Part shown: positions 9,929 to 16,326 of the stretch, piece by piece
Layout of the letters: each line of letters begins with the position of its first letter
Position numbering within the stretch: position 1 is the stretch's first letter
Assembly: GCF_000006405.1 (NCBI RefSeq)
Contig: NW_003216498.1
Span: 953,794 to 1,017,793, forward strand
Direction of reading: 5' to 3'
Length of the DNA stretch: 64,000 nucleotides
From: Perkinsus marinus ATCC 50983
Taxonomy: Eukaryota > Perkinsozoa > Perkinsida > Perkinsidae
Position numbers and translations under genes: made by a program
Notes under the pieces: model-generated
Seen by the model: only the letters and a program-made list of their open reading frames with translations
Told to the model about the DNA's origin: nothing
Databases searched by the model: none

Positions 9929-12900
9929 TCATGCAAACTGTACGTCAGAATAATGAGCATGCAAGATCGCCGCTCTAACGGACTCCAGCCGCACCACAAC
10001 TTCATCCGTGGTATCATCTGTAGCCCCACAGTCTTTGAGGGACTTCTGGACACACTGGAGGAAACAGTCCAGATGGAAATCGGTCATGGCCAGAGTCTGG
10101 TGTATCTCCTCGAGACTCCGGCCGTTGTATTCCGACGATCCTGAACGGAATCAGTGTGACGAAGATCGGCTGAGGACACGGACCTCCTAGAAGCATGCTG
10201 ATGTAAGCTGCCTGGGCCTTCTTGATGAGCTCCAACTTGGACCCCTCAAAAAACATGTTGATCCTGTTGTCTCTTTCGACAAACTCATACCTACCGATTC
10301 GATTGCATACAAGATCAACGGTCTCGCTTACAAGTGGCTGATGAAGTGAGAGATTCCTTCGTGTCCTCCCAACTTCATGAACAGCTGATCCAAACCGTCG
10401 GTTTCGTTCTTCTTTTTCGCTGCCTCCATTCTGACTGTGCAACCAATGGTCACGTCCGATCGTATACCATTCACGACCTGACTATTTCTTCTCGAGGACT
10501 TGAACTTCTATAAGGAAACCTCAACCCACCTGCGTCATATCGTCTATAGTATCAACATCTATTTTCATTTCCCTGGCTGCGTTGGTGAGGACCTCCAATA
10601 CGGCGTCGAAGTGATAGTTGGTGATGTTCATATTATAATGGGCGGGCTTCAGGTTAGCTGGATCATATTGTATCGGGCCTCCAAATGCTCCGCTTAAATA
10701 CTGGTACCTACAAGCCGTGCTCCCATCACTGTCAAGAGTTCGATCTACGGCTACATTCGCATACGAATCCTTCTCTGAGTTGCCTTGTCTCTATTGAAGA
10801 AGAATTGGACCCGCGAGTCCACTACGGCACGGTCGTACCTGCACGTATCGCCTTCTACCAGAGATCTTCTCAAGGGAACTACATATTCTCAACGAGAGAC
10901 TCCAAGTTCATATCGCCACCTAACCTCATCAACAGGGACTTGCCGTTCTTCATTACACCAGCAACTAAATATGGTTCCCTCTGAAAGTCTCCCACGATTC
11001 TTCCGCTTACCTTCGACAGTCTTTCGTCCCATCACTTGTGGTCGTACTTGCTCGATGGTAATCATTACCTCATCCATGACTACCTCGTCAATGCCAGTGC
11101 CCAGCATTGCTCGTTGGAAGTCACCGATGAAAGCATCAAAGTGGAAGTCGTTGATGCCGAGCGTTTCGTGGATTGCATAGAGCTCACGGGTGGTGGATTT
11201 CTTTGGACCTCCAAACATTTCAATGAAGTACTTCGTTTGACCTTCTTTTATCTTCTTGATTTTCTTATCGTCGAAGAACTCTTTGATTCGCGTATCGGTA
11301 GTGACGATTTGATACAGAATATTCAGAGTCTCTCGAATGCCCTTCTCGCCTCCTAGCCTGAGTTGAATCAACATATTCGAGACCACTCACTGTATTTCAA
11401 CAACTAGGTTTGCATAATCTCAACATTCCGATTGAAATCTACTCGACAATGAACTTTCTATAGCTGCATGCTCATCGTCACTGAATCCAGCCGATTCAAC
11501 GATTAGCTTACTTCCTATACAACTGGTCTTTGCCCAGCGATAGATTCTTCAACGCTATCTCCCTCCTCACGCCGTAGCCCGTAGTGACCATTGGCCGCAC
11601 CGGCTGAAGTAGTTTCATGAGTTCACGAGAATCACCTGCACCACCGAGAGCCCAGTACACCCGGTCCTATACTGCTAGGCAACAACCCACTCCGTTTCAA
11701 GTCCAACTCTCGTAGCGAGGTCTCCTTGATCAGTTGCAACATCGCACCAAAATGGTAATCCGTGATGTTCATGTTGTAGTGCGCTGGCCGCATGTCGTTC
11801 GCATCATAACTCGATGGGCCGCCTGCCATGCATAAGACTCGTCCTAGCGGTAACGCTAGATGAAGTCACCAGTTATTCCACAGAGGAACTGAATCATTTT
11901 CTTCTTAATAGAAGACACCTTGGCTTTGTTCTTCTCAAAGAAGCTACGTAGACATGTATCAACTATGGCCTTATCGTAAACTATATCGATGAGCTTGGTG
12001 ATAGCAAGCTCCCCGCCAATCCGTTCATATCTAAAAACACCCAATCATCGTCGAAATGATTACATTAGTGCTACGAGTTATGCAGCGAACGCATGACTAG
12101 ACTTACATGGGTTTCACATTTGCTAACTGTTGCGCCCGCTTGGTATCATGCTTTCGGAGATCAGGATGCACTACGGACGACCGAGCCGTTTCAAGGAGGA
12201 CTGTACCTTAGCCGGAGACTCGTTTCTAGAGGTTGCGAATACAAGATAGCGAGATAAACTAGCTCACAAGACTTCTTTCTCACAAGATTTGGCCATGAAA
12301 GGGTCAACGCATTCAGTCCAAACCAGATTGACAAATAAGCCGGATGGCGGGATTGAACCGCCGACCTCCAGTTTACAAGACTGGCGCTCTACCACTAAGC
12401 TAAACCGGCTTAAAAACCCTCAACGACCATGAGATCATCTACCATTATCTATGATATGGAGCAGATTCACTAGCCTAACTGAACCGCCGACATGTGACTT
12501 TCACGACTGATGGTCTGCCATTAAGCTAACCCAATTTGGAGAACCCCAAACAACCACAGACTGTCGACCGCCATACATGGTAATAGTATTATCGCCATGA
12601 TGATATGGCTGAATGTTCAAACGCCCGACGCCCTGCTGAGCGGTAGGAATTAGATTCAAGTGTGACCGTGAAGGAACTGTTCAACCGTCATTACTCGCAT
12701 TTACAATAACGACTACCCTCGTTACATTCGTCAACAGCGTCTGAGTCCAGTCCACATGCTGCTAGGTTCTTCCTGCACTGCTCGATGAAACAGTCGAAGT
12801 GGAAATCCGCAATCCTTATCATCGCATGGATTCGGGGAAGTTCCCTTCCCATGTACTCGCGTGAAGAGCCAAAGAGCTGTGCAACATACTCCGCTGAAAG

Positions 12901-14357
12901 GACCAGCACAACGTCGCGCATGGTTCACCAAAACAAATGATTCCATAAATGCATCTCACAGTGGTCATCGGATTAGTACCACTATTGATTAATGACAAGT
13001 AGACGATCACCTCCTTTACCTTGGCTTTGCTTCACTGAGTCCAACTTTGCGCCCGAGAAGAAATGCTGAATTCGATCGTCTTGGAGAACCGACTCGTACA
13101 GTTTGTCCATGAACTTCATAATTCCTTCATCCTCGCCGAGTACACAGAACAGACCATCCGTACCTGAGACGCGAGTCGATCGCACAGAACCCCAATAATT
13201 TCCGTTGATGAAGAACCACGGCAAGAGAAATGCTACTCTGCCTCAAACTAGCCACTACCAGCGCTCTCTGTCTTCTTCCGAGCAATTTCAAGGCGTACCG
13301 TGCACCCAGCCGTGATGTCAGGCCGCACAGATGCTGCTACTTCCGCAATGTCCCGTGTGAGCTCCGGGGTGAGCTCCATCATTTCACATGCCACCTAGGA
13401 AAGTGTTAGACGTGTTACTACGGCATGACTCACTCGTAGATTCTCCAGCAACGTGTCGAAATGATAGTCTGTGATGTTCATGTTATAATGTATCGGTCGC
13501 AGACGCTTCAGATCGTAGACCGACGGCCCACCGCTCAACCCGATTATAACTTGTGCCTTTTACAAAGAACTTTCTAAAGGCTGACGTACCAGGAGCAGCC
13601 ATACCATCTTAGCCTTGAGGTTCGTCATTTTAGCCGGCTCTAACGCGAAGTAATATTTCACCCTAGGGTCCACTAGGCATCCCGAATACCTGAATACCAC
13701 CGAACTCCAATGCACTCTTCCAAGACAGATAAATCAGATGGTCTCACATCGTCTCAATGAGCGATTCCATATTCATTTCTCCACCAAGACGCTCCAGGAC
13801 CGTCTTCCCATCCACCATCTTATGTGCAGCATTAATCCCACGCTTCCGATTCAGTACGTCCGCCCGGAGGTTTTCCATCACAACAAGCACCTGCCACACC
13901 TCCCCACCGAAATGGCACAGCGCTGTCCCTACCTCGTCTATAGTGTCGTCACCAAGGCCAAGGCCCGACAGGACCCTCTCAGCATTCATAACAAGACAGT
14001 CGAAGTGATAATCATCTACGTTCATGCCCTTATGTACCTCCGGCAGTGATCGGCCTGTACGTTCACACTCGAGCAAGAAGCCAAACATAGACACATTCCC
14101 CACCGTTATACTGCTCATCACCACCAAGGACTTCCGTAAAGAACACAGTCTGCCTTTTCTTGATTCTAATTGAAGCACACGAATCAACGCGGCCGAAACT
14201 CTCCCCGCTCACTTAGTAACGTCTTTGCCATGGAAGAACTTCTTGATACGCGCATCAATGCAAATGAGATCATACAGTCTGTCCATAAACTTGGCGATCC
14301 CCGTCGACTCTAAACCAGCGCATTTCAACTCGCGCCCTTTAGGTCCTCCTCCTACTG

Positions 14358-14409
<52 letters not shown>

Positions 14410-15528
14410 CCCCAACCTTCCTATACAAAAGGTCTTTCCCTTTTTCCATATTCCTTCTTGCGATCTCCATACGTACAGTGCACCCCGTAGTGATCTCCCG
14501 ACGAACCTGACCAACCATGTCTCCCTCCCTCTATAGACACCTATCAATACTGTCCTGAATGCCATCACAGCATCGATCACCGCATTAGGGTGGACGCCAA
14601 GCTCCTCAAAGGCAGCCTGGAAGTGCTCAACTACCTGTACGCGGCGTCCGACCAAATCCATCACCATACCGACTCACAGCATCAAAATGGTAGTCAGTGA
14701 TGTTCATATGATAATGAGCAGGTTTTATATTCTCCTCGTCATACAGCACCGGACCTCCCATTAACCCCGAAAGGAACTGTGCGAAGTGTGGTACGATTGA
14801 TAGACACATACGCGAACACTACCTGGTGCATTTTCTGTCGAATTGACACCATCTTCCTCTGGTTTTTTTCAAAGTGTGCTCTGAAGAGTAACAGTCTCAG
14901 GACGCACTAGTGAGGGAAATTATTCACGTGATCAACTACATGTGTTGATGAAGGTATGGAAATTCTGATGAAATTATGGGACTATTTTTGAATTCTGATT
15001 GAATGATTTTCTGATGAATTCTGATTATTATGAAATTTTCGTTTGTTTCCAAGTATATACTTCGCTTCGAATTCATAGCTAAGTGATGAAACTCTGCTGA
15101 GCTCAGCTGAGGGAAGCAAGCATATATCTCTCACTACCTCGTCCTGGGATCCTGAAGGGCCCTGCCGTACGCCATCTCAACAGCCGTTTCCAACGTCAAG
15201 TCACCACCAACCCTCTCGTATCTGTCACCCCAACACTGTCACCAACCCAAACTACTCCTATTACAATGTCTTCGTCTTGTCGTCATGCGCCATACGCTTC
15301 TTGAGAGCTCCAAACCCTACAGTGTTCTGTTCCTCTGCCGCCGCTGCCTCTGCCGCATCCTTGATCATATCTTTGAACCTAATGCCCCCCAGCCTCCCAC
15401 CGACCCCCAAGAAGCGACCTGGTCTACTGTCTGATTCCATCCCTCGCCTTAGCAATCTCTCCCCTCAGCTTGCTAGTACCAACATCCTTCATAGCAGCAG
15501 ACGGCCCCGATGATGTTGCCACCGCCAT
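9929..15528 (-). CDS. Eight-domain tandem truncated haemoglobin (polyglobin)
   Basis: About 30 exons joined by short GT-AG introns encode an N-terminal region of about 80 residues, then eight truncated (2/2) globin domains, ending at a TGA at 9929-9931. Approximate domain spans in protein order: D1 15221-14551, D2 14328-13800, D3 13795-13290, D4 13170-12150, D5 12029-11520, D6 11360-11000, D7 10975-10440, D8 10415-9929. All eight keep a B-helix Tyr before the D-x-R turn, a Phe at the CD corner (FF or YF) and the proximal His (PAHYNMNITDYHFD in odd domains; EVHKGMNVDDYHFD-type in even domains). Odd and even domains form two subtypes, so the gene looks like four copies of a two-globin unit. Linkers such as GCTVRMEIAR recur. 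Haem binding and a role in oxygen or NO chemistry are inferred from the family. The N-terminal exon joins are not fully resolved. The introns contain a tRNA-Thr gene, a trinucleotide repeat and one dispersed repeat copy. Confidence 0.85.
12338..12409 (-). tRNA. tRNA-Thr (UGU)
   Basis: The minus strand folds as a full cloverleaf: acceptor GCCGGTT/ATCCGGC (one T-T mismatch), D arm GCTTAGTGGTAGAGC, anticodon stem CCAGT/ACTGG with loop CTTGTAA (anticodon TGT), variable AGGTC, and T arm GGCGG TTCAATC CCGCC. There is no intron. It lies inside the 519-nt intron (12207-12725) between globin domains 4 and 5, on the same strand as that gene. Confidence 0.93.
12471..12537 (-). pseudogene. Degenerate tRNA relic next to tRNA-Thr
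   Basis: The minus strand reads GGGTTAGCTTAATGGCAGA followed by GTCGGCGGTTCAGTTAGGC, which matches the D arm and the start of the T arm of the tRNA-Thr about 60 nt downstream. The anticodon stem is disrupted and the 3' acceptor does not pair. It looks like a decayed tandem copy of that tRNA. Confidence 0.55.
14352..14409 (+). repeat. (CTA)n trinucleotide repeat in globin intron
   Basis: About 18 CTA units (TAG on the coding strand) with one interruption lie in the intron between globin domains 1 and 2, just upstream of the acceptor as read on the minus strand. Confidence 0.95.
14930..15128 (-). repeat. Dispersed inverted-end repeat, copy 1 (globin intron)
   Basis: This copy fills most of the intron inside globin domain 1. 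Family landmarks are visible in reverse orientation: GTTGATCACGTG at one end and TCAGCTGAGC with CATATAT at the other. The internal AT-rich part is longer and more diverged than in other copies. Confidence 0.6.
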
Positions 15529-15628
15529 CCTTACTTGATTCAATTTACCTACTCACACCAACTCCTTCAGCACTAATAGAATCTAACACCATTGATAAAA
15601 GACAGTACATATTTGAGATGATCTGCTA

Positions 15629-15736
15629 TTTCAATGGAGTTTCATCCGTTTTACTTGAAGTGGCGCAATACCCCGTGAGAAACTCGATATTCGCGCTATA
15701 TATGTTTTTCAAATCACGGGCGAAACTCCAATGAAA
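15629..15736. repeat. Short inverted-repeat element
   Basis: The left end TTTCAATGGAGTTTCATCCG and the reverse complement of the right end, TTTCATTGGAGTTTCGCCCG, match over about 28 bp with a few mismatches around a roughly 50-bp centre. It lies between the globin gene and the small gene at 15934-16326. It is unrelated in sequence to the dispersed repeat family. Confidence 0.6.
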
Positions 15737-15933
15737 TTTCAGGAAATTCATCGAAACCCACCGGAAAAAATTGAAAAATGGCGTTTTTTTTCGAAAAAAA
15801 ATAGTAAATCGTTGGATTTCCGCGCCAAACATCGACTTGATCTGGGAATGCCGTACTCTACAGAGCTCCGGACTGCCAATGAGGACTCTCTGCAGGCGAT
15901 AGACCTAGAGTCGCCCAACTCGAACAAATGCTC

Positions 15934-16326
15934 CTACAACTGCGATTCAGTACAGATGTTCTCCCCTATACTACCAGCAACATTCGCTATCCGTAACTTC
16001 ACACTCTGTACTTCCGACTGCGATCGCTCGATCGCTTCCAGTAGTGCTGTAACGTCAGCCATGTGACCAACAGCTGCCCCTATCTCCACATTGACAACAA
16101 CAACAAGGACAATGACCAAATGTTACTCCCACTCCTGCGTGAACTTCATTCAAACTACACAAAGGCCATCTATGAGCTATTCATCACCAATACCACTACC
16201 CGCCCGCTTGCCCAAGTTGACCATCTTATCCTGGTTGGACTGAACGGGTGGTGCTGCAGTAGAGGAGTAGAACTGCAGCGTAGAGGCAAAGTTGGGACTA
16301 TTGTTCTGAGCTGTTGAAGTTGACAT
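15934..16326 (-). CDS. Small coiled-coil protein, divergent from RPS14
   Basis: The ATG at 16326 starts an exon of about 42 residues (MSTSTAQNNSPNFASTLQFY...DKMVNLGKRA). Short introns lead to a helical exon (HMADVTALLEAIERSQSEV...VKLRIANVA) with heptad-like spacing. One frame stops at 15934. An alternative splice could extend the end to about 15750. The start lies about 200 bp from RPS14 on the opposite strand, so the two probably share a promoter region. The family is not recognised; the size and coiled coil would fit a small adaptor or complex subunit. Confidence 0.4.

Follow-up and report, generated by a model that had tools for sequence, protein, structure and literature searches.

How many proteins are encoded by a run of globin-like exons on the minus strand of one Perkinsus marinus scaffold, and what might their product do? 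The exons lie in a 64,000-nucleotide stretch of the ATCC 50983 genome (contig NW_003216498.1, positions 953,794 to 1,017,793; hereafter the window). A first-pass annotation made from the letters alone had read them as one gene for eight tandem truncated (2/2) globin domains joined by frame-preserving GT-AG splices, each domain with the B-helix Tyr, CD-corner Phe and proximal His.

The gene and its eight globin domains

GT-AG splicing of the minus-strand exons yields a single open frame of 1165 codons across eight domains, and all 27 introns (39-519 nt, median 48 nt) have GT-AG borders, as first described. Pfam hmmscan of the joined protein, run on the first gene model, whose start and two of whose junctions were later changed, placed PF01152 (Bac_globin) on all eight units in eight stretches (E 2.2e-108, 357.6 bits; cut-off 21 bits). 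Searched singly, domains 1, 4, 5 and 7 score 42-58 bits, above the cut-off, and two unjoined exons of the gene pass it in a whole-genome scan. A domain profile gave 21 ordered exon matches on the minus strand from 15220 to 9938 and one weak match (E 0.03) elsewhere on either strand of the 64 kb; built from 14 proteins that include the window's own, it is partly circular. TyrB10, PheCD1 and HisF8, in a helix numbering that we take to be that of Mycobacterium tuberculosis HbN, are present in 8/8 domains, in agreement with the first reading, and, tested for membership of the 2/2 fold, the window protein falls within it. Over the 112 domains of the 14 proteins, HisF8 is invariant (112/112) and PheCD1 nearly so (100/112). 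The features are as follows, with residues in the order B10, CD1, E7, E11, F8 and with types A and B as defined in the next section.

16062..9929, minus strand: whole coding region, 28 exons, 1165 residues, 27 GT-AG introns
16062-15975, 15548-15428, 15378-15265, 15221-15138, 14880-14823, 14776-14678, 14634-14551, minus strand: exons 1-7
14506-14410, 14309-14213, 14165-14104, 14054-13933, 13890-13748, 13689-13605, 13556-13434, minus strand: exons 8-14
13394-13259, 13163-13020, 12893-12726, 12206-12107, 12030-11870, 11822-11691, 11635-11512, minus strand: exons 15-21
11357-11011, 10964-10883, 10838-10755, 10707-10530, 10477-10332, 10290-10184, 10140-9929, minus strand: exons 22-28
15267..16062, minus strand: N-terminal region, residues 1-107, N-terminus common to P0014, P0006 and P0001
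14429..15266, minus strand: domain 1 (A type), Y126, F139, I149 (E7), M153 (E11), H176; PF01152 1.7e-15 alone
13801..14428, minus strand: domain 2 (B type), Y261, F274, I282, Q286, H309
13153..13800, minus strand: domain 3 (A type), Y391, F404, L414, M418, H441
12109..13152, minus strand: domain 4 (B type), Y527, F540, V548, Q552, H575; split by intron 17; PF01152 9.1e-11 alone
12207..12725, minus strand: intron 17 of the exon model, 519 nt, contains a tRNA gene
12337..12410, minus strand: tRNA-Thr (anticodon TGT), nested in intron 17; ARAGORN; Rfam RF00005, 70 bits
11523..12108, minus strand: domain 5 (A type), Y660, F673, I683, M687, H710; PF01152 2.4e-12 alone
10933..11522, minus strand: domain 6 (B type), Y796, F809, I817, Q821, H844; exon above the Pfam cut-off in the genome scan
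10385..10932, minus strand: domain 7 (A type), Y925, F938, I948, M952, H975; PF01152 1.8e-14 alone
9932..10384, minus strand: domain 8 (B type), Y1061, F1074, I1082, Q1086, H1109

Homologues guided the manual fitting of the exon model. The closest proteins among the matches listed are P. olseni FOL46_006286 (P0001), identical at 1050 of 1165 residues with no gap, and P. marinus PMAR008889 (P0014), identical at 603 of 609 paired residues apart from one 5-residue insertion. At least 80% protein identity to P. olseni is found in 26 of the 28 exons, the exceptions being exon 9 (24/31) and exon 10 (14/20). The first-pass annotation had started the gene at 15528; that start was rejected and coding placed at 16062, because P0014, P0006 and P0001 share an N-terminal segment encoded by the exon there, which makes the Met at 15528 residue 37. 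Two junctions of the first hand-built model were also discarded: a 26-nt intron, in favour of a 44-nt intron implied by P0014, and the original borders of intron 17, in favour of GTAACG...GCTAAG, which remove the sole gap to P. olseni. Intron 8 holds a 19-copy trinucleotide repeat (14352-14409) that reads open in two frames, as poly-Ser and poly-Val, a trap for gene finders.

Structure matches point to one class of truncated haemoglobin. Against the Protein Data Bank (PDB), the joined protein scores best at domain 2 (3aq5, E 1.4e-19), and group 1 structures are the best matches of domains 4, 5 and 7 searched singly; one set of PDB match rows covers domains 2 and 4 almost alone and so is no test of the A domains. 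Trp at G8, described in passages of PMC4720485 as marking the O/P/Q truncated haemoglobins, occurs in none of the eight window domains and in 1 of 112 overall. On the structure matches and the lack of this Trp, the window domains resemble group 1 (N) and not group 2/3 (O/P). The PheB9-TyrB10 pair, which the relevant passages of PMC4720485 and PMC4439042 give as common but not universal in the N type, is absent from the window, where TyrB10, present in 8/8 domains, follows an Ala, Leu, Met or Val at B9 and in no case a Phe. Matches to Protoglobin (PF11563) fall inside the truncated-globin domains with far lower scores, and this family was set aside. The predicted structure of the eight-domain homologue P0006 has a mean predicted local distance difference test (pLDDT) of 83.9 and a predicted template modelling score (pTM) of 0.69; the N-terminal region is predicted in homologues, at low to middling confidence, to form long helices. 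The gene would be expressed as a single transcript in this species, and we regard it as very probable that its product is a single chain in which eight group 1 (N-type) domains follow a helical N-terminal region.

Homologues, alternation and age of the array

The first-pass annotation had suggested looking for the same architecture in relatives, and it recurs there. At least 42 homologous proteins were found among 7998 candidates scored, and all domain counts refer to these 42: eight domain matches in 20, seven in seven, nine in four, eleven in three, six in three, five in two, four in two and ten in one. The profile counts part-domains in divergent homologues (P0033 has nine by profile, six by Pfam), and several entries are labelled partial by their source. 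Eight Pfam stretches are also present in P0001, P0006, P0010, P0018 and P0023. P0018 and P0023 are MMETSP transcript open reading frames (ORFs) labelled complete, from relatives; both cluster with P0006 (support 1.0). The proposal of eight domains from one gene is supported by Pfam, by the gap-free P. olseni protein and by such transcript-derived proteins. P0006 carries the label MMETSP0469, which we take to be Oxyrrhis marina, consistent with its 81% identity to P0031, an entry named for that member of the Dinophyceae. The count of eight is not uniform: P0031 (625 residues) has four domains, which BLAST assigns to domain 1, domain 2, a domain 3/7 hybrid and domain 8. To judge from this composition, P0031 would reflect a shortening of the gene or faulty transcript assembly, and is not the first half of an array.

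A profile search returned at least 46 proteins (7995 candidates scored), whose named organisms are Perkinsus or Oxyrrhis; the weak match P0058 stands apart. Searching with a domain 2-3 piece for small stand-alone relatives returned five proteins, four of them from Perkinsus, and the Perkinsus homologues among the matches listed bear only the name 'hypothetical protein'. Metagenome homologues of the array are intronless; a viral origin for them was considered and dropped when a scan of viral contigs with P0010, by six short peptide patterns only, gave no relative. In marine or other metagenome eukaryotes, an eight-domain protein and a divergent relative seem to stand side by side, intronless, in the pairs P0007/P0038 and P0010/P0041, whose members come from contigs of matching length (45489 and 31603). 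Three Perkinsus entries with eleven domain matches (P0002, P0003, P0017) may be either fusions of adjacent genes or genuinely longer arrays.

Within the window protein the domains alternate between two types four times over: domains 1, 3, 5 and 7 (A) have Met at E11 and domains 2, 4, 6 and 8 (B) have Gln. Identity is 38-45% among A domains and 34-42% among B domains, against 19-26% between A and B. Over the 14 proteins, E11 is Met in 38/56 A domains and Gln in 34/56 B domains, while E7 is Ile in 67/112 domains and Ile, Leu or Val in the window. A midpoint-rooted tree of the 112 domains of the window protein and 13 homologues separates 56 A from 56 B domains, with a support of 0.56 on one side of the root and 1.0 on the other. 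Each of positions 1, 3, 4, 6, 7 and 8 forms a clade (with a support of only 0.35 for 7), domain 6 is nested within domain 2, and domain 5 is not monophyletic when rooted. Positions 2 and 6 (0.97) and 3 and 7 (0.91) pair; 1 and 5, and 4 and 8, do not. Doubling of an A-B-A-B block is a likely, though not proven, origin of the array. Since Perkinsus and the Oxyrrhis-like proteins have orthologous domains at most positions, the array is ancestral, and the view that its eight positions predate the Perkinsus-Oxyrrhis split is well supported by the tree. Retention of the eight-unit layout in the dinoflagellate Oxyrrhis likewise argues for an old and probably working multi-haem O2/NO (nitric oxide) protein, not a quirk of one genome.

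Gene boundaries and proposed function

A tRNA-Thr gene lies within domain 4, between its G helix and domain 5, and raises the alternative that two adjacent four-domain genes (domains 1-4 and 5-8) are separated by the tRNA. That P0014 has four domains, ending where it reads into intron 17, and that the Oxyrrhis entry P0031 also has four would suit this arrangement. We consider it very improbable: the P. marinus model P0014 stops at four because the tRNA is nested in intron 17, P0031 is not a first half, the P. olseni protein spans all eight domains, and eight is the count in 20 of the listed homologues. Beyond the tRNA, exon 18 (12206-12107), which encodes the domain 4 H helix, and the linker to domain 5 continue in frame and match P. 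olseni at 29 of the 32 residues compared, and an H helix encoded past the tRNA favours one gene. A decayed gene, or exons hand-joined into a false frame, is scarcely credible; the model was indeed fitted to homologues, but its open codons, its uniform GT-AG borders and its exon-by-exon, gap-free agreement with P. olseni speak against an artefact.

A decayed tRNA-like copy beside the tRNA-Thr (about 12470-12535, minus strand) was seen by eye only and is absent from the ARAGORN and Rfam lists. A genome scan gave 14 matches to the tRNA-Thr, itself included.

What, then, might a single chain of eight 2/2 globins do? The functions offered in the first-pass annotation are inference, as it said itself. 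Passages of PMC4720485 on N-type proteins associate polar Gln at E7/E11 with a high affinity for O2 and probable scavenging of NO; where E7, E11 and G8 are hydrophobic, they describe weaker O2 binding and a role in storage or transport. On this E7/E11 scale the B domains should bind O2 more tightly than the A domains. With haem loaded, TyrB10 and GlnE11 would give the B domains tight O2 binding and NO dioxygenation, TyrB10 with MetE11 would give the A domains a weaker hold on O2, the chain would buffer O2 inside the cell at high capacity with two affinities, oxygenated B domains would also remove NO, and a separate cellular reductase would restore the iron. No export signal was seen by eye in the window protein, and a cytosolic location is presumed. 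Taken whole, structure included, this picture of a high-capacity intracellular O2 buffer with two affinities, NO-destroying B domains and a separate reductase is one we hold tentatively, at slightly less than even confidence. Several observations weigh against it. E7 in the window is not Gln, so the B domains carry only part of the high-affinity pattern; the Tyr-Phe-His triad is whole in 77 of 112 domains, with 2/8 in P0023 and 3/14 at domain 6, so tight O2 binding may not be required of every unit; Pfam hmmscan of the joined protein found no reductase domain fused in the chain; and MetE11 was not found discussed in PMC4720485 (the whole word 'met' has 0 matches), which makes the A-domain affinity an extrapolation.

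The same incomplete triads, with B10 and CD1 varying among relatives, suit a protein that serves as a scaffold or stores haem, its globin folds counting for more than gas chemistry. Weak units in divergent homologues (the six Pfam stretches of P0033) and the long helices predicted for the N-terminal region fit it as well, but the constancy of HisF8 and PheCD1 and the eight whole triads of the window protein do not, and we think this explanation unlikely, though worth keeping in view. Still less probable is a multi-haem redox enzyme, a peroxidase or an electron relay, in which MetE11 could touch the A-domain iron: Met can ligate haem iron and eight haems per chain would suit a relay, but TyrB10 is retained in 49/56 A domains and Met ligation lacks geometric support, the predicted structure being haem-free. 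A variant of the buffer proposal, equally improbable in our estimate, would make the alternating pockets a division of labour, with low-affinity MetE11 domains storing O2 and passing it to high-affinity GlnE11 neighbours that consume NO (or peroxide); if true, this would be a self-fuelled eight-haem dioxygenase, retained since before the Perkinsus-dinoflagellate split.

Known multidomain globins and the genomic neighbourhood

The group 1 proteins of Tetrahymena pyriformis (3aq5), M. tuberculosis (HbN, 1idr) and Chlamydomonas eugametos (1dly) are single-domain, whereas the window protein has eight domains per chain and MetE11 in every second one. An eight-domain truncated haemoglobin and a paper on Perkinsus globins were both absent from the literature matches listed, a scope that excludes Hade 2017, which by its title reportedly concerns multidomain truncated haemoglobins, and Vinogradov 2013, either of which may mention such arrays. 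The first-pass statement that truncated globins are normally single-domain needs amending, since several 2/2 domains per chain have been described, four of them in Chlamydomonas THB5 (the relevant part of PMC7082302); it knew of no eight-domain case, and none is among the literature matches listed. THB5 resembles the window protein, on what that source gives, in carrying multiple 2/2 domains on one polypeptide and differs in having four, not eight in four A-B pairs, and in lying outside alveolates; the window array therefore extends the known multidomain truncated haemoglobins and is not the first of them. Long arrays on one chain are also found in the tandem haemoglobins of invertebrates, nine domains in Artemia and 14-28 in some bivalves (as excerpted from PMC4503718), but those are 3/3 and extracellular. 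Among protist globins, as far as the excerpts go, Symbiodinium Hb-1/Hb-2 are short with one globin domain, and the Guillardia theta chimeric globins are 3/3 with six domains over two proteins. The 2/2 globins of single-celled alveolates reached a long tandem design independently of the extracellular 3/3 haemoglobins, keeping domain order across the Perkinsus-Oxyrrhis split. New here are the four-fold A-B alternation with MetE11/GlnE11 and the orthologous positions; the alternation offers two pockets per chain for testing the influence of E11 on reactions with O2 and NO.

The genome-wide Pfam scan covered the 54.5-Mb assembly and gave 13 matches above the cut-off. Four further loci look eight-domained when exon matches are grouped by eye (C289, C267, C281 and C142:406.7-412.4 kb), and single-domain globin loci number one on C253 and four on C132. 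An SFT2/Got1-like first-exon piece (16186-16326, minus strand) lies a short way upstream of the globin gene; a Got1-like gene is fused in front of the globin in one P. olseni gene model (P0001), and two tandem match sets covering most of an SFT2/Got1-like gene are found on C162 of this genome. Two adjacent ORFs for pyridine nucleotide-disulphide oxidoreductases (PF07992; 23972-24856 and 26339-27763, plus strand) are separated from the globin gene by about 8-18 kb.
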